Positions 2,602 to 14,464 of a stretch of DNA of 32,290 nucleotides are shown here, piece by piece (position 1 is the first letter of the stretch; each line of letters begins with the position of its first letter). The notes beneath the pieces are model-generated. The model was not told the DNA's origin. It made no database searches and was given only the letters and a program-made list of their open reading frames with translations. The position numbers were made by a program, and so were the translations under genes. Location: assembly GCA_017694275.1 (NCBI GenBank), contig JADINB010000066.1, positions 1 to 32,290 on the forward strand. Direction: 5' to 3'. This stretch comes from Candidatus Egerieousia excrementavium. GTDB taxonomy: Bacteria; Bacteroidota; Bacteroidia; Bacteroidales; UBA932.

Positions 2602-2633
2602 CAAAGATAGCAGCCGGGCACGATAAAGCCAAA
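2602..2633 (-). promoter_or_regulatory. Bacteroidetes-type promoter upstream of fhs (TTTG-N20-TATCTTTG)
   Basis: Minus strand reads TTTG (2633-2630), 20 nt spacer, TATCTTTG (2609-2602), 21 bp before the fhs ATG; matches the Bacteroides consensus TTTG/TAnnTTTG. Confidence 0.75.
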
Positions 2634-2658: not shown

Positions 2659-4689
2659 TCATTCAAGGATATATTTTCCGGCAACCATATCTTCGTAGGT
2701 AGGGTTATAGGCACAATTCGTCACGCTCCATCTCTCTCCGGATATGGAATCCAATATATTCTTCAGCCCGGAAAAATCGGTAAGATTCCCGCAATACTCG
2801 ATTGTTACCGAACCGGCAACTTTAAGTGAACTGAGAAAATCCAGATCCGTAATTGAAACCCGGCTCTGATTGTACGACGATACTCCGCTTATTAGCAGCG
2901 ATTCGGTAACCTCTTCCAATCTGGGAACATTTATACTCTCTACATCCAACGGCGTTTTTATCTCGAATATCCCTATCTTCTCCAGAGATGGCATTTCAAG
3001 ATTCTTCAAAGTAGAAGAAAAAGAGAGTGAAAGTTTTCCCAATGTCTTTATGTCCGGCATTGAAATTCTGCTTGCATAGGCAGCACTTATCTTAAGTTCG
3101 CCCTTTATTGCCGTTGCATAACCTTCCAGCGTCAGTTCCGTGTTCCTGAAATTGCTCAATGTAAAATTTTCCACCTCTTCCAGTCCCTCCATGGGAATAG
3201 CCTCTGCCACCTGGCTGGCCGCATTAATCACTATCTCTCCTACTTTTGCGGGGACCTTGCATTTTTTTATTGCAGGTGAACCTGTTATCGACAGTTCAGA
3301 CAGATTTTCGACAGTTGAAATATCCAATATCTCCGGCCCTTCCATATAATAGAGGTAAAATGTCCCGTTGCATGTTTTAAGAAGAGGCAAATCCAACTCC
3401 TTGAGCGATTGCATGTAACGCAAATCAAATGTTCCATCCACAGAGAACAGGGATGTCAGAGAAAGCGATGCGATATTCAGATACGAGAGCGCAAAAGCTC
3501 CGTTTACCTGCTCGAGCGAAGAGAAATCGAGAGTTTCGATTATGGGAGCGTTGTTTCTTCCGTCTATATCTATGGCCCCGGCCTCTTTCAGCCCCGGCAT
3601 TTGCAGACTCTTCAACCCGCTCATGTCATAAGGGACTGCAATAGTCCCTCCGACGCGCTCCAGAGCAGGAAAAGAGATAATCTCTACCAAAGGCAGCAAT
3701 TTAAAATTGAGTTTTCCCGATATGGTTTTCAGCACCGGCAAGGAGAGGGAGGAGAGATTGGACAAAGTTTGCAGAGTAAGGTTACCTCCTACATTCTCCA
3801 GTGCCGGCAGTGAAAACTCCGTAATTTCGCCATTTGCACCAGAAGCAGTCGTCCCAGACGAAACTGTAAGATTTCCATATACTGTTTTCAGAAGGGGCAG
3901 GGAAATTTCATTGACACTCTTGCCGTTTACATATAAAGACATGACTTCCGAAAGGGCATTCAGACAAATCCGGCCGACCTTTTCCGAATTTACCGTTATC
4001 TGGCCGGCAACCGTTTCAAGGGCAGGCAGTTCAATGGAAAGGAGGCTCTCTTTTCCGTTGTCGAAAGCATTCTCCTCATCGCCTATATAAAGATTTCCCG
4101 CATACCTGACATTATGCAGCCCGTCGAGGTTCATTCCTCCGAAAGAATTGTTGATTACTATATTTCCCCTGACCTCCGTAAGAGAAGCCAGAGAAGAGAG
4201 GTTCTTTACGGTATCGTATTCCGTTGCCGGAACCGTTTTTTCGCCTATTATAAGATTGCCTTCAAGGATCTTTACCTTCTCTGCGGCAAAGGCCTCCAGT
4301 TCCGCCTGCGTGGCCAGTATCACATTTCCGCCGGAAACCTTTTCGTCACGCACCACGGAATAGTTATAGTTCCTTGCCTGTCCGCTATACGAGGTAACGG
4401 TAAAAAGGCATGCCTGATTCCATTCCTCAACGGTTGCAGGGTCCGGCGATATCGTAGCCAGTTCGCATATCTCATATCTGGCAGTTGCACCCTGCAAATC
4501 CGCCTCCTGAGGAACTGTCAGGGTAATAAGATTGTTTATGATTTCTGCATGGTACACAACTCCGTCTTTTTCCAGAGAGAACGAATTCAAATAGTTGTCG
4601 CTGCCGATAAAATCATTGTTTTCTTTGTCGCAAGCTGTAAAAAGAGAGGCAGCGAGCGACAAAAACATTATTATTGATATCTTTTTCAT
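2659..4689 (-). CDS. Surface lipoprotein with N-terminal Ig-like (DUF5018-type) domain and leucine-rich/receptor-L-like repeat solenoid
   Basis: 676 aa; signal peptide ending 'SLFTAC' with acidic 'CDKENNDF'; many repeats of about 20-25 aa such as 'SLPVLKTISGKLNF', 'SFPALERVGGTIAV'; paralogous to the adjacent ORF. Confidence 0.8.
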   Translation of the reverse strand: MKKISIIMFLSLAASLFTACDKENNDFIGSDNYLNSFSLEKDGVVYHAEIINNLITLTVPQEADLQGATARYEICELATISPDPATVEEWNQACLFTVTSYSGQARNYNYSVVRDEKVSGGNVILATQAELEAFAAEKVKILEGNLIIGEKTVPATEYDTVKNLSSLASLTEVRGNIVINNSFGGMNLDGLHNVRYAGNLYIGDEENAFDNGKESLLSIELPALETVAGQITVNSEKVGRICLNALSEVMSLYVNGKSVNEISLPLLKTVYGNLTVSSGTTASGANGEITEFSLPALENVGGNLTLQTLSNLSSLSLPVLKTISGKLNFKLLPLVEIISFPALERVGGTIAVPYDMSGLKSLQMPGLKEAGAIDIDGRNNAPIIETLDFSSLEQVNGAFALSYLNIASLSLTSLFSVDGTFDLRYMQSLKELDLPLLKTCNGTFYLYYMEGPEILDISTVENLSELSITGSPAIKKCKVPAKVGEIVINAASQVAEAIPMEGLEEVENFTLSNFRNTELTLEGYATAIKGELKISAAYASRISMPDIKTLGKLSLSFSSTLKNLEMPSLEKIGIFEIKTPLDVESINVPRLEEVTESLLISGVSSYNQSRVSITDLDFLSSLKVAGSVTIEYCGNLTDFSGLKNILDSISGERWSVTNCAYNPTYEDMVAGKYILE

Positions 4690-4699
4690 CTTGTCTGTT

Positions 4700-6760
4700 C
4701 TATTGCATGGTATATTTTCCGTTTTTCATATCTGCAAGGGTGGGATTGTATCTGTTTCCGCTTACCGCCCATGCGCTTTCATCCGAAAGGTTGTCTGCCA
4801 AAGAGGAGAGTCCGGTAAAGTCCGTAAGGTTTCCGCAATAGCGGACTTCGACCCTGTCTGCCTTTTTTAGGGAGGCGAACCAGTCCAATTTTGTAACCGC
4901 ACTTCGCGAAGCCGTCGATGAGGAGCTCCCCCCGTAAAATTTGAACAGTGTGCCGGCAGACTCCAAAAGCGGCACATTGATATTTTCAATCTTTTGCAGA
5001 TTGCTCATCGAAAACGAACCGGCACATCTGAGCACAGGCGCCTCGAATGTTGTCAATGCAGTAAGGTTGCTTAACGTAAGAGTGCCTATGGTATCTGCAT
5101 CGGGCAGGCGCAAGGCCGCAAGTTTTGTTCCGCTTGTATGTGAAAACGCTCCTATCGATTTTATATGGGGAATCTCTATTTCGGTAAAGTTGGCCGCTGT
5201 AATCCTGAGAGTTCCCCTTACGGTATCGAGCCCCGTCATTTCTGTCAGGAACATATCCTCCGCATTTGCAGATGCATTGGTAATGGAAAGATTGCCTGTC
5301 ACGATCTTCGGAGAGTTCATCCTCACCAGCCCAGTGCAGCCGCTTAACGCAATGGCCCCTGTCTGCGCCACCTTTGAAAAATCCAGTTCCCTTACATTGG
5401 CAATGGATGTAATCGAAAGTTCTCCGCACTCTTCCAAAGAGCCAAAAGAGAGGGTTTCCAAAAAATAAAAGGTAGAAAGCTCGAGTTTTCCTGCAATTTT
5501 CCTCAATTTTGGAAACGAGAGATTCTCCATTGAGCCGTATTTAATGGAAAAATTGCCATTGACTTCTTCAATGGAACCAAGCACAATATCTGTCAGATTT
5601 ATGTATGAGCTCCCCGACGAGGCAACGGAAAGCGACCCTGCGCCTTTAAGCAATGGCGCAGAGAATGAAACCATTGCATCATTGGAAGTTATTTTCATAT
5701 CTCCGCCTGTCATCCGCAGCGATGGAAGTTCCAGCTCTTTAAGACCGTACAGATATGTAAGGGAGAGCGAACCTTTCACCTCTGAAAGCAGAGGGAAATC
5801 CGCACAGGAAAGGCTCCATATATTATTTACCGAGAGGTTTCCGTAAACGGTTTCCAAAGCGGGAAACGAAAGTTCCGCAAGTTTTCGGTTCACATTCGTT
5901 CCGCTACCGGATGAAGCACCTTGCGACTTGCCTTCGACCGTAATATCTCCGAAACACTCCTGCAACAGACCGGCTTCAATCTCCTCCACCGACCTGGAGT
6001 TTACATAAAATGCATTGTTCACTGTTTCAAGAGAGGGAAAAGAGATTTTGGCAATGCTGTCGCTGACTATGACTATATCTGTTGCAGAAGCCAATTTCGG
6101 GAGAGAAAGGCTGAAACCGCCTTCAAGGGCGCATTTTTCATCTTCCCTGCCTGCATGGATGCCGCCGGCCTTCTCGAGATTTGCCAGCCCGTCGATATTG
6201 CTCCCCTTGTAAGTGTCTCTTATGACAAGGTTGGCGCCTATCTCCTTCAAGGAGGCGAGCGCATCCACGTTTTTGATTGTATCATATTGGAAAGAGGGCT
6301 CCTTTTCCGCACCGATTATAACTGAACCGCTGACAGTTGTCGTACCGGATGAGGCAAAGGCGTCTACCTCTTCCTGCGTTGTAAAGAGAAGTGTTCCGCT
6401 CTCTATGTTTTCCGTGTATTTCACGCTATACCTGTAGCTTTCATAACTTCCGCCATACGCCTCGACCCTGAACAGATGGTCGTTGCCCCAGTCGGAAATT
6501 GAAGCGGGGTCCGGATTTATGCTTGCATTTTCACACAACATGTACTCCGCCGCCGCTCCTGAAAGCGAAACGCCGTAAGGCACTGCAAGCAGGATATTGC
6601 CGGCATCTATGGACGCAACGTATCTTGCGCCATCGGCAGTTGTAAGCGCAAAAGAGAGGATATGTGTATCGCTTCCCTCAAAAGGAGATTCTTCCTTGTC
6701 ACACCCTGCAAAGAGAGAGAGAATTGCACAGAGAAGCATAATGTTGAATGTCTGTTTCAT
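4700..6760 (-). CDS. Surface lipoprotein with N-terminal Ig-like domain and leucine-rich/receptor-L-like repeat solenoid (tandem paralogue)
   Basis: 686 aa; lipobox 'LSLFAGCDKEESPFEGSD'; repeats 'SFPALETVYGNLSVNN', 'DFPLLSEVKGSLSLTY'; shares N-terminal '..ISPDPA...W...LF.V..Y.G....Y.YSV' and C-terminal 'YCGNLTDFxGL..YNPTxxDMxxGKY' with the next ORF. Confidence 0.8.
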   Translation of the reverse strand: MKQTFNIMLLCAILSLFAGCDKEESPFEGSDTHILSFALTTADGARYVASIDAGNILLAVPYGVSLSGAAAEYMLCENASINPDPASISDWGNDHLFRVEAYGGSYESYRYSVKYTENIESGTLLFTTQEEVDAFASSGTTTVSGSVIIGAEKEPSFQYDTIKNVDALASLKEIGANLVIRDTYKGSNIDGLANLEKAGGIHAGREDEKCALEGGFSLSLPKLASATDIVIVSDSIAKISFPSLETVNNAFYVNSRSVEEIEAGLLQECFGDITVEGKSQGASSGSGTNVNRKLAELSFPALETVYGNLSVNNIWSLSCADFPLLSEVKGSLSLTYLYGLKELELPSLRMTGGDMKITSNDAMVSFSAPLLKGAGSLSVASSGSSYINLTDIVLGSIEEVNGNFSIKYGSMENLSFPKLRKIAGKLELSTFYFLETLSFGSLEECGELSITSIANVRELDFSKVAQTGAIALSGCTGLVRMNSPKIVTGNLSITNASANAEDMFLTEMTGLDTVRGTLRITAANFTEIEIPHIKSIGAFSHTSGTKLAALRLPDADTIGTLTLSNLTALTTFEAPVLRCAGSFSMSNLQKIENINVPLLESAGTLFKFYGGSSSSTASRSAVTKLDWFASLKKADRVEVRYCGNLTDFTGLSSLADNLSDESAWAVSGNRYNPTLADMKNGKYTMQ

Positions 6761-6783
6761 AAAATCATGTTTTAGTAAATCTT

Positions 6784-8517
6784 TCAGTTCTTCAGCAGAT
6801 TGAAATCATTGAAATCCAAAACCTCGGTAGAGATTTCTCCCAACCAGCCCGATTTGGCGTTTACCGCACACTGGACCTTTACAAAGTCTATATATTTCAG
6901 ATTTGCCGGTTGCCCGTCAAAAGTTACCGCATCGCTTATCCTGAAATGGTTGCCATTGGCGGCAGCAGCATAATTGTCATCGTCGGTCAGCCTGTCGGAT
7001 CCGAAATTGTCTGCGTATCCCCATTCGAAATCTCCGTTAAACCAGTATCCTGGGCGAACCTCCTCGTTCTTTGGAGAGATACATGTCCCGCGCAAGGTAT
7101 AGGAATCCTCCTCGACCCATTCAGGATAATAATAATCCTGCCTGTGGAAAGAGCCCAGATAATCTATATAGCCGCTGCCGCCCTGGTTGTCCTCCCATAA
7201 AACGGGCATCTGGGCACCCTTCGGTCTGTAATAGGTAATGCAGTAGTCGCGAATCTCCGTACCGGTTCCGAATTCGCTTCCTTTAAGCTCATACCATGTA
7301 TCGTTGGGAAGGCCGTCTCCGTTCTCATCCTGCATGACCCATACTATGCCGGGTTCCGATGAACCGGAAAAGGAGTTTCCCTTTATCTGGATGTTGTAGT
7401 CCCCGTCATTCTCTATACTGTGGTCGAACCCTACCACTATATAGCCGCCAAAACCGCCAAGGCTTACATAGGAGTTCCCTGACTGCAGCCTGCTTTCTGC
7501 ATACTCTGTCGCTTCATCCATGGTTTGTGCAACATAACCTTCATTTATGAACTGGCCTGGAGCCGGCAAAAATTCATAAACCCTGTTGAACTTGGCATTG
7601 CTCGCCCCGGTTGCCGTTCTCTTGTACTCTCCTTCTGCAGGACAGTTGTTTACCTTCAGTTCTTTGGTAACCTCCGCATACGGATTTTTCATGGTTACGG
7701 AAACGGCTGTAACACTGCCGGATTTTGTTTCAGAGGCCGATGGAGCAGTATAGAGATACTCCGTAGAGGTTCCGCGCTGGACTTCTGTCCCGTCTACCTT
7801 CCATATATATTCGGCTCCAAAATCGTTTTTCACGTCAAATGCCTTGATACGTATCGTACGTCCTGCCGAAACATTGAACGTATCATATTCGAAATTCCAG
7901 CTGAACGGCATTTCCTCCGCAGTACAGACCCTCACCGCAAATTCTGCTTCCGAAGAACCGTCTTCGGAACTTGCCACCAGTTTCAGATTATAAGTACCCG
8001 CCTTTTCGGCCACAAAGGAGAAGCTCCGGGTCGAGGCTGTTTCAACTCCGTCTACATACCAGACAAATGTTGCTCCTTCTCCGTTTTCTATGACAGGTTC
8101 CAGCAGAAGCGTTCCCCCCTCTATGGTAACATATCCGTCTTGCGGCACGGCAAGCGAAATTTGCGGCACGGCAAGCTCCACTACGGAAATCTGAACTTCA
8201 GAATAAGCCGTGCCGCAACCATTGGCTACACATAACTCTATGTAATATACCCCAGTCTCTGCAGAAGAGAATACGAGCGAGGGCTCGGTAGAGATAATGT
8301 TTCCGTCTAATTTCCAAGCGAAGACAGCATCTTCCGCATTCTCATACTCAGGAACAATCGTTATCTGCCTGCCGGCCTTTACGCTGTAGGATGCTTCCTG
8401 GTTGTCTAAAGAAATTACGGGAGGTTTCCCTCCGGCGGGTTCATCCTCGCAACAGGTGAGGAGAATTCCCAAAAACAATGACATTACTATAATGCCGGAT
8501 TTCATGATTCTTTTCAT
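6784..8517 (-). CDS. PKD/Ig-like multidomain surface lipoprotein with a C-terminal domain typical of Bacteroidetes cell-surface proteins
   Basis: Trimmed from the 607 aa ORF to internal Met31 (ATG at 8517), because the signal peptide 'MKRIMKSGIIVMSLFLGILLTCCEDEP' starts there and the longer start overlaps the upstream gene; three PKD-like domains ('VFAWKLDGN', 'TFVWYVDGVE', 'EYIWKVDGTE'). Confidence 0.8.
   Translation of the reverse strand: MKRIMKSGIIVMSLFLGILLTCCEDEPAGGKPPVISLDNQEASYSVKAGRQITIVPEYENAEDAVFAWKLDGNIISTEPSLVFSSAETGVYYIELCVANGCGTAYSEVQISVVELAVPQISLAVPQDGYVTIEGGTLLLEPVIENGEGATFVWYVDGVETASTRSFSFVAEKAGTYNLKLVASSEDGSSEAEFAVRVCTAEEMPFSWNFEYDTFNVSAGRTIRIKAFDVKNDFGAEYIWKVDGTEVQRGTSTEYLYTAPSASETKSGSVTAVSVTMKNPYAEVTKELKVNNCPAEGEYKRTATGASNAKFNRVYEFLPAPGQFINEGYVAQTMDEATEYAESRLQSGNSYVSLGGFGGYIVVGFDHSIENDGDYNIQIKGNSFSGSSEPGIVWVMQDENGDGLPNDTWYELKGSEFGTGTEIRDYCITYYRPKGAQMPVLWEDNQGGSGYIDYLGSFHRQDYYYPEWVEEDSYTLRGTCISPKNEEVRPGYWFNGDFEWGYADNFGSDRLTDDDNYAAAANGNHFRISDAVTFDGQPANLKYIDFVKVQCAVNAKSGWLGEISTEVLDFNDFNLLKN
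8140..8218. repeat. Two direct copies and one inverted copy of ttgcggcacggc inside the PKD gene
   Basis: ttgcggcacggc(aagc) at 8140 and 8161 (21 bp period, encoding LAVPQ twice); the exact reverse complement gccgtgccgcaa is at 8207-8218. Confidence 0.9.
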
Positions 8518-8534
8518 TTCTATTGTGTTTATGG

Positions 8535-9716
8535 TTAACTGTCTAAATCCACCTTCGATTCTGTAAATGCAAAATGGGCCGGTATGTCTCCAGTAACTGC
8601 AGTCCATTTCAGTTTGCCGTATCTGTCGAAACAGTAAAGCACTCCCGGAGTTACATAGTCTCCGGCATCTGTCACGAAAATCTCCCTTGTCTGAGGATTG
8701 ACTGCCAGCCCGTACGGGGTCTTTATCTTCTTTTCGGTGCCGTCAGATATGAAATTTCTTGAAACAATGCGCTTCTGCACCATATCGTAAATCGCATACG
8801 AAATCGTGTAACTATTTGTAGTATAATTAAATTCATTACCCAGCACATAAAGCGAATCTCCTCCTGCAACCATATTGCTGTTTGGCAGAGTATGCAGGGT
8901 ATCTGTCACAATATCTCTGTTGGAATCTATGATAAAGGTTTTCGACGGTGTTCCGTAATAATCGCCACGCGAGGAGATATAGATATTGCCATAGGCATCC
9001 TGCACCATTCTGTGCAGGTTTATCCCGACCTCCATAGTTTTGACTACCTGAAAACTCTCCAGATCTATAACAAAGACCCTGTTGTCGTAGTCTGGCACCC
9101 GGTATCCACCCGAATTGGCCACATAGAGTTTGCCGTTGCATATAACCATATCTTCCGGCTGATAACCCACCGTACACTCCGCTACCACTTCAAGCGTGGC
9201 CGTATCGACTTTGGCAACATACCCCAGACGGGCATTGGGGTCTATCTCCACCGGACCGGCATAAGATGTAACATAGGCATATCTGCCTTCAAACTCTATA
9301 TACCGGCAGTTGGGAATCGGGATAGTGGCAATGTGTTTTGCTGTCTTTGAATCCATTACCTCAACAAAATGGGAACAGTTTACGACTACATACAACTTGT
9401 TTCCGTAAATCTGAATATCATTGCCCACATCTCCCAATTCCTTCACTACACCGGGATTTCTCTCTGCGAAAATGTTTTTGGAATAAATGCCCGATTCGTA
9501 ATCGAAGTAATCTATGGTAGCCTTGTTGCTGCCCATATTGCCTTCGTTCAGAAGATAAAAGCCGGTTATTTCGTTGCCCTCGCCGCCAGGTGCAACCGGT
9601 TTCTCTTCCGGCGGAACAATCACATCTGCTTTTCTGCATGAAAAAAGAAGCAACAATGCTAAAATAAATGTCGGAACTCTGTTAATCATTATCATATTCA
9701 TTTCGTACAAATTCAC
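8535..9716 (-). CDS. YncE/DUF5074-like beta-propeller surface lipoprotein, BtuG-like
   Basis: 393 aa; lipoprotein signal 'TFILALLLLFSCRKAD'; 'GFYLLNEGNMGSNKATIDYFD' and propeller motifs 'VMDSKTAKHIATIPIPNCRYIEFEGRYAYVTSY', 'GYQPEDMVICNGKLYVANSG'; directly follows the btuB-like gene behind a cobalamin riboswitch. Confidence 0.85.
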   Translation of the reverse strand: MNLYEMNMIMINRVPTFILALLLLFSCRKADVIVPPEEKPVAPGGEGNEITGFYLLNEGNMGSNKATIDYFDYESGIYSKNIFAERNPGVVKELGDVGNDIQIYGNKLYVVVNCSHFVEVMDSKTAKHIATIPIPNCRYIEFEGRYAYVTSYAGPVEIDPNARLGYVAKVDTATLEVVAECTVGYQPEDMVICNGKLYVANSGGYRVPDYDNRVFVIDLESFQVVKTMEVGINLHRMVQDAYGNIYISSRGDYYGTPSKTFIIDSNRDIVTDTLHTLPNSNMVAGGDSLYVLGNEFNYTTNSYTISYAIYDMVQKRIVSRNFISDGTEKKIKTPYGLAVNPQTREIFVTDAGDYVTPGVLYCFDRYGKLKWTAVTGDIPAHFAFTESKVDLDS

Positions 9717-9717
9717 A

Positions 9718-11808
9718 TTAAAACATAACCGATGCCGTTATCCTGAAATTGGTTCCCGGCATGGGGTAACACTGCACTACTTCATACTGCTGGTCGAATA
9801 TATTGTTTACCTCTGCCGAGAGATGCAACCTGCATTTTTTGATTTCAAAGCCTTTTGAGAGAGACAGGTCGCTCGTGTACCATGGCTGGGCATAATTTTC
9901 CGGTATATTCGCAGACGACTCATACCTTTCACCCGTATAGATAAAACTGTAGTTAAAACTCCACGACCTGTATGCTGCGCCCAATATCAGAGAACCGCTG
10001 TGCCACGGAATATACGGAATCTGCCCGCCATAATAGCTGCTTTCGCGGTCTGTAAAATCCTGTGCCTTCTGATATGTGTAGCTCGCAAGCAAGTTGAGGG
10101 AAACCTTAGCTATACTGGCTGAAATTTCCGCCGAAACATCTGCACCGCGAATCTCCACATAGCCCAGATTCAGCATCGTCCACCGGAACTGGTTCGATGC
10201 AGGCACTGCAATTATCTTGTCTTCAACTTCATTGTAATAGAGATCCGCCTGTACCTTTACTTTTTTCCAGAATCTGCCGTTCAGGCTCTTTTCATAGCAG
10301 GCGCCGATATTATATTGGGTAGTATATTCGGGATTGAGCTGTTTGTTTCCGATAAAGGTATAGTAGAGATCATTCAGGGTAGGCATCCTGAATATCCGCT
10401 TATAGAAGGCCCTGAAAGTGAGACCGCTATTATCGAACGGTCTGTAAGAGGCTACAACTGTCGGGGTCAGTTCGCTTTTATCAGGAGCCGGTTTCCCCCT
10501 TTTCACGCTCTCCGTAACAAAGGTATTGAGCAGGCTTCCCTGAACCTTTAATTTTCCCCAATCGAATGAGGTGGCAAGAGCTGCAAGGAGGGTATATCTG
10601 TCGGGATAGGCAAAATCCGTCAAGTCTGCATTGAGAGTATTGTATTGCAGGTCTGCCGACAGATTCATGCTCCACCATTCAAAAAGCCTGAACCCGTTTA
10701 CCGATGAAAAATAGAGTTCCTGCTGCCTGTATCGGTTGTCTACATACATTGTGGTAACGTCCAGCCTCGGGTCCGACAGATAATGCAGATAATCGTATGC
10801 ATATTTGGCATTCAGCTGCATTCTGTAAAACCTGGAAATCTCTTTATGGAATCTCCCCTGCAGGAAAAAATTCCTGTCCCATTGCCGGTCCTGATGCCTG
10901 TATTTACCCGGCTCTTCCCTTACGGACGCTCCGGGATACCCTCTTTCGGAATCATAAAAGTAGGCTTTCGCCTGCCATCTTCCGTCTTCTATATTCCCAA
11001 AGAGAGAGGCTTCCGCCCTGTAATACCTGACATCGCCGTTTTTTCTTACCTCGGTGGTATCATAACCGTCTCTCTTTGAATAGCTGAATTTATATTTGCC
11101 AGTTGTATAAAGATACTCCGTACTTATCTGCATGGAGAGATTCTCCCCGATTCTCCTCTCCCACAACAATGACGGGTTTACGGTCCCGAACGACCCGCCT
11201 TTGACCGCAGCCTTGAAATTATTCTTCTTTCCCTCCCCGAAGAACGGAGTCCTGGATTGCAGATAAATGGAGCCGGCCGATGCAAAGTCCTTTGCGCTTT
11301 GGAATATGGAGCTTTTCTGGCCATTGTAGAGGGAGACCGCTTCCATATTGTCCAATGAAAATTTGCCCAAATCGACTATCCCGTTCTGGGCATTCCCTAT
11401 CTCCACTCCGTCATAAAAAACTCCTACATGCTGGCTTCCCAGACTGCGGATATTTACGCTTTTGAGACCGCCCACACCTCCGTAGTCCTTTATCTGCACG
11501 CCGGAAAAATAGCGTATGGCATCTGCTACCGAATGGGCGCTTAACCTCTGGAGCCGCTCTCCGGCCAGCCTTTGGGCCGGTATGATTTTAGGTACGCTCT
11601 TATGCGCCGTGACATATACGCTTTCCAGCTGCTGCACCGAATCCGCATCAAAGCCGTCCGGCATGGTATGCCCTTCATAAACCGGCACGGAAGCAGCAGA
11701 TATTGTTGCAGCCAACGGCACAACAGACAAAAAAAGGGCGAATGACAATCCTCTGCAATCAGGCATAACAATTAATTTTAAATCAATCATTACACCTGCG
11801 GATAACAT
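9718..11808 (-). CDS. btuB: TonB-dependent outer membrane receptor, BtuB-like (cobalamin)
   Basis: Up to 696 aa; plug domain 'HSVADAIRYFSGVQIKDYGGVGGLKSVNIRSLGSQHVGVFYDGVEIGNAQNGIVDLGKFSLDNMEAVSLYNG'; C-terminal barrel ending 'NIFDQQYEVVQCYPMPGTNFRITASVMF'. Start uncertain: Met at 11808, 11790 or 11766. Confidence 0.9.
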   Translation of the reverse strand: MLSAGVMIDLKLIVMPDCRGLSFALFLSVVPLAATISAASVPVYEGHTMPDGFDADSVQQLESVYVTAHKSVPKIIPAQRLAGERLQRLSAHSVADAIRYFSGVQIKDYGGVGGLKSVNIRSLGSQHVGVFYDGVEIGNAQNGIVDLGKFSLDNMEAVSLYNGQKSSIFQSAKDFASAGSIYLQSRTPFFGEGKKNNFKAAVKGGSFGTVNPSLLWERRIGENLSMQISTEYLYTTGKYKFSYSKRDGYDTTEVRKNGDVRYYRAEASLFGNIEDGRWQAKAYFYDSERGYPGASVREEPGKYRHQDRQWDRNFFLQGRFHKEISRFYRMQLNAKYAYDYLHYLSDPRLDVTTMYVDNRYRQQELYFSSVNGFRLFEWWSMNLSADLQYNTLNADLTDFAYPDRYTLLAALATSFDWGKLKVQGSLLNTFVTESVKRGKPAPDKSELTPTVVASYRPFDNSGLTFRAFYKRIFRMPTLNDLYYTFIGNKQLNPEYTTQYNIGACYEKSLNGRFWKKVKVQADLYYNEVEDKIIAVPASNQFRWTMLNLGYVEIRGADVSAEISASIAKVSLNLLASYTYQKAQDFTDRESSYYGGQIPYIPWHSGSLILGAAYRSWSFNYSFIYTGERYESSANIPENYAQPWYTSDLSLSKGFEIKKCRLHLSAEVNNIFDQQYEVVQCYPMPGTNFRITASVMF

Positions 11809-11954
11809 TCACCTCTCATTTGCGTCCGTAACAGTACCGCACATTCGGCAATACTGCGCCGGAGCGCATATCATAAGACAAATCAAAAGAGAAACCTACG
11901 ATTCAACTCTATTGTTCTCATTCCTCCCATTCTCCGCAGGAGTAACTTTTAAAC

Positions 11955-12128
11955 CGTAACGGCAGGTCTTCTGACTTGTCCCTGTTTAGCGCCTTCCCGG
12001 TTTGATCCAGTGGCAAAGAGTGCTAAACACATTAAGGAACTCACAGCAGCGGGAACTGTTGCAGATTTTCACTGCATTCCCTTTTAATTCCGGTCATGAG
12101 ACTAAATTGACATGACCAGGAAACCAAT
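11955..12128 (-). promoter_or_regulatory. Cobalamin (AdoCbl) riboswitch controlling the btuB-like operon
   Basis: Minus strand contains AAAAGGGAATGCAGTGAAAATCTGCAACAGTTCCCGCTGCTGTGA, GCCACTGG, CGGGAAGGC and the B12 box AAGTCAGAAGACCTGCC, in canonical order. Confidence 0.96.
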
Positions 12129-12136
12129 TACGCTTG

Positions 12137-12166
12137 CAAATGTACTATTTTTATAGTTCCGACAAA
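12137..12166 (-). promoter_or_regulatory. Promoter of the B12 riboswitch/btuB operon
   Basis: Minus strand TTTG, 18 nt spacer, TACATTTG (12144-12137), just upstream of the riboswitch 5' end. Confidence 0.6.
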
Positions 12167-12391: not shown

Positions 12392-13519
12392 TTATTCTTC
12401 TCCGATTTCATCTCTCACCCATGAAGAGAGGGCGAACGGCTCGCTGTCGTCGAAGAAAAGGGCAGTCATTCTATCTACGATATCATGCCCGTGATTACTG
12501 TTTGTAAAGTATAAAAGATAGGTCTGCTCCTGAGGTATAAGAATGAACAGCGCCCTGAAGGTGTCGTTGTCACCCCAGTGCCATAGTATGTTGCCATGTC
12601 TTGCATTCTTCTCCACGCCTATGCCAAGCCCCCAGAATATTGAAGAATCGCATGGTCTTTCCAAACCTGCAAACCTTACCGCCCTGTTTGTATCAGGAGT
12701 AAACATCATCTCTTTTATTTCGGGCCTTAGGGTGGTGCCGGTCATAAGTTCATTGAGGAATTTGGCATAATCTTCTGCCGTGGTTCTCAGGGTATAGCCT
12801 ACATTTGCCCTGGGATGGCGTCTGAGCCCCTCGCAAACTCTGTCTTTATATCCGTAGACGGCCAGCGTGTCATACTCGCTTCGCCATGCATAACTGCTGT
12901 TTGTCATTCCAAGCGGGTTGAAGACCTCCTCCTCTGCTATGGTTTCGATATCCTTTCCCTTTATGGCTTCAATGGCTCTTTGCAGAAAGGCAAAGCCTTC
13001 TCCAGAATAGTCATAGCAGGAATCCGGCGGGAACTTGAACGTTATTTCAGAAGTCGGCCACTCTGCAGACGATGCGGCCACACTCCAGTTGGGAAGGCCG
13101 CTTCTATGCCTTAGCACCATTCTGGCCGTAAGTTTCCTTGCAGTCTCCTTGTCTTTGAACCTGTCGATATCGGTATATTTGTATAAAGGTGTATCCAAAT
13201 CTATTTCGCCATTCTGGACAGCCTTCATCACTATATAGGAGAAGACAACCTTGCTGAGTGACGCGGCCTGCATTATGGGCGGCTGTTTTATTGCCGTTCC
13301 GTCTGCAATCCTGGTTGAGTCATAAAAATCGGGGTTTATACACTGAATTCTGTAATCAGTCTCGGGAGAATGGTAAATCAGATCTATAAAAGGAATATCT
13401 GCATCCTTTATCATCTGCGAAATCTGAGAATCGTACTTTTCCCTGGTATTCTCCCCCTGTGAACATGAAACCGAAATGGTTGAAAAGATAACTGCGCACA
13501 TAATAAAAAACTTTCTCAT
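12392..13519 (-). CDS. Beta-lactamase/penicillin-binding-protein-family serine hydrolase, lipoprotein
   Basis: 375 aa; signal 'MRKFFIMCAVIFSTISVSCSQ'; 'QAASLSKVVFSYIVMKAVQNGEIDLDTPL' with SxxK; 'YDYSGEGFAFLQRAIEAIKGKDIETIAEEEVFNPLGMTNS'. Confidence 0.9.
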   Translation of the reverse strand: MRKFFIMCAVIFSTISVSCSQGENTREKYDSQISQMIKDADIPFIDLIYHSPETDYRIQCINPDFYDSTRIADGTAIKQPPIMQAASLSKVVFSYIVMKAVQNGEIDLDTPLYKYTDIDRFKDKETARKLTARMVLRHRSGLPNWSVAASSAEWPTSEITFKFPPDSCYDYSGEGFAFLQRAIEAIKGKDIETIAEEEVFNPLGMTNSSYAWRSEYDTLAVYGYKDRVCEGLRRHPRANVGYTLRTTAEDYAKFLNELMTGTTLRPEIKEMMFTPDTNRAVRFAGLERPCDSSIFWGLGIGVEKNARHGNILWHWGDNDTFRALFILIPQEQTYLLYFTNSNHGHDIVDRMTALFFDDSEPFALSSWVRDEIGEE

Positions 13520-13598: not shown

Positions 13599-14315
13599 AT
13601 GGAACCGTTGCATATCATAACCCCCGTAAAAGACTCACTGGACCTGACTGTCCAAACAATAAAATCCATATTGGGGTCTGAGACAAATTTCCCGTTCAAA
13701 TATACGGTATACAACGATTTCTCAACTCAAGAGAATACCGCACGGCTCTCATCCCTTTCAAAAGAACTGGGGTTTGAACTTGTAAACCTGCAGGAGATAA
13801 CCTCCACTCCCTCTCCAAATTACCGCCTTACCCTGAGGCTTGCGCAAAAAAAGGCGCTGGAGGAGGGTGCATCGCTTCTTATAGTCGAGAGCGACGTTGT
13901 CGTAAGGGCTGATACAGTCCAGAAACTGTACGACGGTTCCAAAGAAAAGCCCGACTGTGCCATTGCGGCATCAGTAACAGTAGACGGGAACGGAGAGATA
14001 AACTATCCTTACCTTTTTGCAAAGAAAATCAGAAAAGATGTTGTTCCGGTAAGGAACCATTGCAGTTTCTGCTGTTCGATACTTACAAACAGATTCCTGA
14101 AAGAGTACGACTTCAACCGGCTCGACCCTTCGAAAAACTGGTATGACGTTTCAATCTCACAGACGGCGCTCAAAATGGGGTACAGGAACTATCTGTTTCT
14201 TTCACTTCCTGTCTGGCACAGACCTCATGCAAGCAGACCATGGAAGCAGCTCAAGTACAGTTCTCCTTTAAAATATTATTGGTACAAGATAGTCAAGGGG
14301 CTGGACAAAATATAG
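13599..14315 (+). CDS. Family 2-like glycosyltransferase
   Basis: 238 aa; 'MEPLHIITPVKDSLDLTVQTIKSILGSE..FKYTVYNDFSTQENTARL' GT-A N-terminus, 'ASLLIVESDVVVRADTVQKL' DxD-like region. Confidence 0.75.
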   Translation: MEPLHIITPVKDSLDLTVQTIKSILGSETNFPFKYTVYNDFSTQENTARLSSLSKELGFELVNLQEITSTPSPNYRLTLRLAQKKALEEGASLLIVESDVVVRADTVQKLYDGSKEKPDCAIAASVTVDGNGEINYPYLFAKKIRKDVVPVRNHCSFCCSILTNRFLKEYDFNRLDPSKNWYDVSISQTALKMGYRNYLFLSLPVWHRPHASRPWKQLKYSSPLKYYWYKIVKGLDKI

Positions 14316-14389: not shown

Positions 14390-14464
14390 TGGGCCCAACA
14401 GGGCTTGAACCTGTGACCCCCTGATTATGAGTCAGGTGCTACTAACCAACTGAGCTATGGGCCC
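14390..14464 (-). tRNA. tRNA with CAT anticodon (elongator Met, or Ile2 with lysidine; not resolved)
   Basis: Minus strand GGGCCCATAGCTCAGTTGGTTAGTAGCACCTGACTCATAATCAGGGGGTCACAGGTTCAAGCCCTGTTGGGCCCA; acceptor GGGCCCA/TGGGCCC; anticodon loop CTCATAA. Confidence 0.93.

Follow-up and report, generated by a model that had tools for sequence, protein, structure and literature searches.

Why does a vitamin B12 uptake operon of the BtuB-BtuG type end in two genes for repeat-containing lipoproteins? The question is raised by contig JADINB010000066.1 of Candidatus Egerieousia excrementavium (assembly GCA_017694275.1), all 32,290 nucleotides of which we refer to as the window. Here a cobalamin riboswitch precedes five same-strand genes, for the receptor BtuB, the surface lipoprotein BtuG, a PKD-domain lipoprotein and two leucine-rich-repeat (LRR) lipoproteins. 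A preliminary description of this DNA had recognized the riboswitch-headed operon with its extra surface lipoproteins and proposed that the LRR pair is an undescribed surface module for corrinoid capture, for scavenging from a carrier protein or for scaffolding BtuB-BtuG. We found that the operon holds up as described and that the LRR proteins are, by sequence, homologues of the recently named BtuL. We tentatively favor a role for them as docking partners of BtuH, which is our identification of the PKD lipoprotein. The features concerned are the following.

12137-12166, minus strand: putative Bacteroides-type (sigma-ABfr-like) promoter, TTTG-N18-TACATTTG, a consensus match only, abutting the riboswitch
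11944-12143, minus strand: cobalamin riboswitch aptamer RF00174, 104.1 bits, E 2.7e-25, full model 1-189
9718-11808 (open reading frame, ORF), minus strand: btuB, probable TonB-dependent cobalamin receptor; translation likely begins at 11766, ahead of the signal peptide
8535-9716, minus strand: btuG, seven-bladed propeller surface lipoprotein, DUF5074 E 4e-22, 1 bp from btuB
6784-8517, minus strand: btuH, PKD-domain lipoprotein, PKD_3 E 2e-41; true start inside the ORF 6784-8607
4700-6760, minus strand: btuL1 (LRR1), Ig-like N-domain at about residues 31-117 and receptor-L/LRR solenoid at about 124-686, with repeats of 22-23 residues
2659-4689, minus strand: btuL2 (LRR2), paralogue of btuL1 with a like architecture
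2602-2633, minus strand: next Bacteroides-type promoter, 3' of the last LRR gene and 5' of the formate-tetrahydrofolate ligase gene
859-2580: formate-tetrahydrofolate ligase (FTHFS) gene, preceded by the promoter at 2602-2633

When 84,980 species genomes were scanned with the aligned window LRR proteins, 13 loci came up: those of two sister species, one contig from the same genus, nine loci of B12 type, and one weak match outside any B12 locus (L075; L numbers denote loci and G numbers genomes). The Bacteroides faecis locus runs riboswitch, DUF4465 (BtuJ), BtuH, LRR, BtuG and BtuB, and its LRR protein, used as query, is present in 24 of 121 Bacteroides genomes. An order-wide profile search, with two candidates scored per genome, yielded at least 6 of 393 genomes, a result not used as a frequency. 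The locus that fixes the name is L138. Its BtuH is 100% identical to 7BIZ, as are those of L133, L139 and L145; its BtuG is 100% identical to 8BMX, listed as BtuG2-CNCbl (PMC10404256); and its BtuJ, identical at 303 of 305 positions to 9I2L, is taken here as BtuJ2. The btuH and btuG genes flank the LRR gene, btuJ lies two genes upstream, and the order J-H-L-G-B-F-C-D plus a 196-residue protein (X) equals BT_1957 to BT_1949 of the study in which BtuL was named in 2025 (PMC12751083). The btuL slot, the position of BT_1955, was thus assigned through its neighboring genes and not by direct comparison with the BT_1955 sequence. BtuL1 aligns end to end with the protein in that slot (L138:8225-10315) at 27% identity (E 4e-57), and BtuL2 does so at 29% (E 3e-67). 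Because of these end-to-end matches we assign both window proteins as BtuL homologues. They belong to an accessory family that is known, if barely characterized, and are not an undescribed module; in the main text of PMC12751083 the word leucine is absent and a description of the BtuL fold was not found.

The link to B12 uptake extends well beyond the window. Our set of BtuL loci comprises 39 loci with 47 BtuL genes, forming 32 clusters at 80% identity. BtuH is encoded in 37 of the 39, BtuB in 35, BtuG in 33 and BtuJ in 19; these counts are not independent, because one locus (L154) came through its BtuG and several are near-identical. Where btuH is present it always adjoins btuL (37/37), 36 times directly upstream, on the same strand as the first btuL with a gap of 0-39 bp, and once directly downstream. 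The window follows the upstream arrangement, with btuH 23 bp before btuL1 and btuL2 next. Of the two loci lacking btuH, L045 is a truncated contig and L069 an Odoribacteraceae contig whose sequence stops after the LRR gene. A riboswitch is present in all 13 tested loci of other species that are not cut off upstream, and also at the syntenic place in both sister species (G020 and G015). As a control, weak generic LRR matches of 44-57 bits (L142-L144) lie outside B12 loci. Homologues of the LRR genes thus do keep company with btuB, btuG and cobalamin riboswitches in other genomes, and of the two findings that the preliminary description named as refuting it, neither was made.

Two loci outline the range of this association. 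At L131:6877-11034 (G460 C1) a cobalamin riboswitch is followed by btuH and btuL alone, with neither btuB nor btuG in the 18-kb stretch. At the other end, a single riboswitch in Proteiniphilum (L068:2060-17425) heads an operon of btuB, btuG and btuH, then four btuL genes in tandem and btuH once more. Within the window's genus, 28 of 39 genomes have a btuB that passes our threshold, and the btuL pair sits inside the btuB operon in three of the 39, namely the window genome (G000), G015 and G020; in G001 a BtuL lies at the end of a separate contig. Since BtuH without BtuL is common in this genus and nearly all btuL loci have btuH, BtuL appears to depend on BtuH, and not the reverse. Other species of the genus (L052:6877-9213 and L057:5535-7982) carry, behind btuH on the same strand, not btuL but the gene for a second TonB-dependent receptor, with a Plug domain. 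In another same-genus genome, a 696-residue ORF in the btuG position (L048:3815-5905) is longer than BtuG and is possibly a BtuG-BtuH fusion like BtuG1 of B. thetaiotaomicron. Five Bacteroides species genomes (L130, L133, L138, L139 and L145) share a near-identical B12 locus, with BtuH 99.8-100% identical to 7BIZ, and recombinase-like ORFs lie upstream of it in L138; judged from these sequences, the locus appears to have been horizontally transferred.

In the window, the riboswitch scores far above the RF00174 gathering score of 31.5 bits, and the gene order behind it is BtuB-BtuG-BtuH-BtuL-BtuL, with intergenic gaps of 1, 17, 23 and 10 bp, exactly as in the preliminary description. The promoter at 12137-12166 likely drives the operon. 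The pattern TTTG-N17..23-TAnnTTTG occurs six times in the window, where chance would give 0.85, and no copy falls inside the operon; the next site on the strand, at 2602-2633, marks a probable operon boundary. Terminator-like sites number 14 in the window against 9.3 +/- 2.6 in shuffles, only a slight excess, and none lies within an intergenic gap of the operon, in agreement with the earlier statement. Because a promoter abuts the riboswitch, none is internal and the gaps hold no terminator-like site, a single five-gene transcription unit would be the simplest reading.

The first three genes have familiar products. The receptor has TonB-B12 as its best NCBIfam model (E 1.2e-30), at 106.7 bits, below the family's cut-off of 599.7; this match, together with the riboswitch and the BtuG context, supports a BtuB-like receptor, and the gene is 94-97% identical in G020 and G015. 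The best Protein Data Bank (PDB) matches of the BtuG product are 8BLW, the BtuB1G1 complex, and other solved BtuG chains. The PKD domain of the third protein was described correctly, but its identity had been missed: the C-terminal domain (about residues 296-575) matches the B12-bound BtuH2 structure 7BIZ at E 7e-107. The same residues match 8BLW at E 3e-62, and BtuG1 of 8BLW carries a BtuH domain. The window protein is about 40% identical to BtuH2 over 494 alignment columns and is, on this comparison, a BtuH. BtuG and BtuH bind B12, and BtuB and BtuG form a complex (PMC10404256, PMC8941943).

The LRR character of the last two products is borne out by Pfam, with Recep_L_domain scores of 47 bits for BtuL1 and 41 bits for BtuL2 against a cut-off of 21.8; the two are 34-36% identical to each other. 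Both have the lipobox cysteine as residue 20, with DKEES next in one and DKENN in the other, and these acidic residues are consistent with surface export. The AlphaFold2 (AF2) model of LRR1, with a mean predicted local distance difference test (pLDDT) score of 88.6, places an Ig-like domain before a long beta-solenoid. Modeled in isolation (mean pLDDT 91.1), the N-domain matches the N-domain of the levan surface glycan-binding protein (SGBP; 8AA2_G at E 1.6e-5, 8A9Y_G at a template-modeling (TM) score of 0.77-0.79), and, with a weaker E-value, one chain from the BAM complex of P. gingivalis; it also matches structures annotated as glycoside hydrolases. In Foldseek, the solenoid of the full model matched LRR structures at low TM only; with no close structural homologue, the fold of this part rests on Pfam and the model. 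A PDB sequence search returned one weak match for LRR1, the uncharacterized protein 4FS7, and no significant match for LRR2.

Across the family, conservation is higher in the N-domain (0.39) and the C-cap (0.38) than in the mid-solenoid (0.19-0.23). In the tree, window LRR1 groups with the first copies of L065 and L068 (support 100/99), and window LRR2 with their second copies and others (89/87). The order L1-L2 is therefore retained in three lineages, and we assign the window copies to an ancient paralogue pair on the strength of this tree; two old groups in a retained order suggest distinct roles for L1 and L2. Between the sister species, dN/dS is 0.14-0.19 for both btuL genes, indicating purifying selection. 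Sharp blocks of 95-100% alternate with blocks of 74-83% nucleotide identity along both genes (2659-6760), a pattern that we read as a recombination mosaic, and LRR1 of G015 has lost about 90 solenoid residues in frame.

A DUF4465 (BtuJ) gene was sought in G000, G015 and G020, and none was found in these genomes, which are 82-92% complete; a Pfam search of the window LRR proteins found no DUF4465 domain. The window genome has a MetH gene and a BtuC-like permease, and therefore both an enzyme to use B12 and a path for it through the inner membrane. A MetH with internal stops was ruled out, as the gene is intact and is followed by metF. The second cobalamin riboswitch of this genome, on contig 110 (L155:1982-5264), precedes a divergent BtuB-like receptor, 26% identical to a Bacteroides BtuB, and a BtuG-like lipoprotein. 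Elsewhere in the window, a gene for a beta-lactamase-fold lipoprotein (12392-13519) adjoins a plus-strand 238-residue ORF without a Pfam match (13599-14315), which lies upstream of a tRNA gene (14390-14464).

What, then, might the BtuL pair do? We propose that the operon would encode an outer-membrane cobamide-uptake complex, with BtuB as the channel, BtuG as its lid, BtuH as a capture lipoprotein, and BtuL1 and BtuL2 as surface-exposed partners that would not themselves bind corrinoids. The conserved Ig-like N-domain would sit near the membrane and pack on BtuB/BtuG or BtuH, as the levan SGBP N-domain does on SusC, while the variable solenoid would hold or steer BtuH so that the B12 it has caught is handed to BtuBG. 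Surface docking of BtuH within a B12-repressed uptake complex is, in our view, a plausible role for BtuL1/2 and the leading one, though still tentative. Of the functions first proposed for the pair, it comes closest to scaffolding, which we favor over the other readings, BtuH being the more constant partner. Within the levan utilisome, a single rigid unit is made up of SusC, the levanase and the SGBP N-domain (PMC7618045). A fuller version of the docking proposal, possible though rather doubtful, makes BtuL the docking or assembly factor of a B12 utilisome: anchored by the SGBP-like N-domain, the variable solenoid would recruit BtuH to BtuBG, and L1 and L2 together, with as many as four copies in Proteiniphilum, would form an enlarged capture array that does not depend on BtuJ. 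Several points weigh against docking. BtuH is not stably associated with BtuBG in B. thetaiotaomicron (PMC10404256), and the sole BtuL phenotype published in PMC12751083 is early vesicle release. The N-domain may be a generic stalk only, since the same domain occurs in structures annotated as glycoside hydrolases, and the adjacency of btuL and btuH may come from operon descent and not from contact.

The main rival takes the vesicle phenotype as its starting point: BtuL1/2 would promote the release of outer-membrane vesicles in early growth, and these would trap and return B12, carrying BtuH instead of BtuJ. Early in growth, vesicle production was reduced in the btuL mutant, and vesicles were enriched in BtuL (PMC12751083); the window proteins, for their part, align with the btuL-slot protein over their full length. 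In the same study, however, BtuJ vesicles alone delivered B12, and a vesicle role fits the window less well because BtuJ was undetected in its genome and those of its two closest relatives, which are 82-92% complete. Only about half of the BtuL loci have btuJ at all, and the need for two ancient paralogues is not obvious, so that we regard this explanation as somewhat unlikely. It is very improbable that the LRR genes encode generic surface proteins that the operon picked up and that play no part in taking up B12. Generic LRR lipoproteins are common in Bacteroidales, and the pair's restriction to three btuB operons in the genus would suit such an origin. Yet linkage to B12 loci is nearly exclusive across families, with the weak generic LRR matches lying elsewhere; both genes are under purifying selection, and no internal promoter was found.

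Ligand binding by the solenoids could take two forms. LRR and receptor-L folds usually bind proteins, and the solenoid is variable and recombining, as might suit binding to another protein, for example a corrinoid carrier of the host or of bacteria, whose B12 would be stripped or presented. One B12 carrier, intrinsic factor, already gives up its vitamin to BtuG2 (PMC6143338). No such carrier is known as a ligand, however, and the partner conserved across loci is btuH; a single host carrier is unlikely because BtuL members come from a range of families. We consider carrier binding improbable. Direct binding of corrinoids, perhaps other than cyanocobalamin, would suit a B12-repressed operon, most of whose known surface proteins bind cobamides (PMC12751083). 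We give it a lower place still, and with it the capture role first suggested for the pair, because B. thetaiotaomicron BtuL kept no cobalamin in an assay that detected ten binders (PMC12751083).

How B12 passes from free surface lipoproteins such as BtuH to BtuBG is an open question (PMC10404256). Our analysis predicts a fold for BtuL, points to BtuH as its constant partner, shows that it occurs without BtuJ, and identifies a form with two paralogues as well as a minimal unit of riboswitch, btuH and btuL. Docking and vesicle models thereby become separable.

The window can be set beside four known systems. BtuH2 (BT_1956; 7BIZ; PMC8941943) has a PKD-rich N-terminal part and a C-terminal B12-binding domain in common with the window protein, which differs in its modest identity and in standing third in a BtuB-BtuG-BtuH-BtuL-BtuL order. 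BtuJ/DUF4465 (PMC12751083) and BtuK (PMC13398666) are, like BtuL, accessory surface lipoproteins of B12 loci, but BtuJ is a jelly-roll B12 binder (PMC12751083) to which the window LRR proteins have no Pfam relation. The levan SGBP (Bt1761; PMC7618045) has a lipidated Ig-like N-domain with the fold predicted in the BtuL model, and carries a glycan-binding domain where BtuL has its LRR/receptor-L solenoid. The fourth system is BtuL of B. thetaiotaomicron locus 2 (BT_1955; PMC12751083), also a lipoprotein whose gene adjoins btuH in an operon of the same type under B12-riboswitch control. Unlike that locus, the window has tandem paralogues in place of one BtuL, places them downstream of btuB-btuG-btuH and not between btuH and btuG, and lacks btuJ in the operon, with none detectable in the genome either. 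What is new is the tandem arrangement of L1 and L2, the predicted fold, the linkage to BtuH and the independence from BtuJ.

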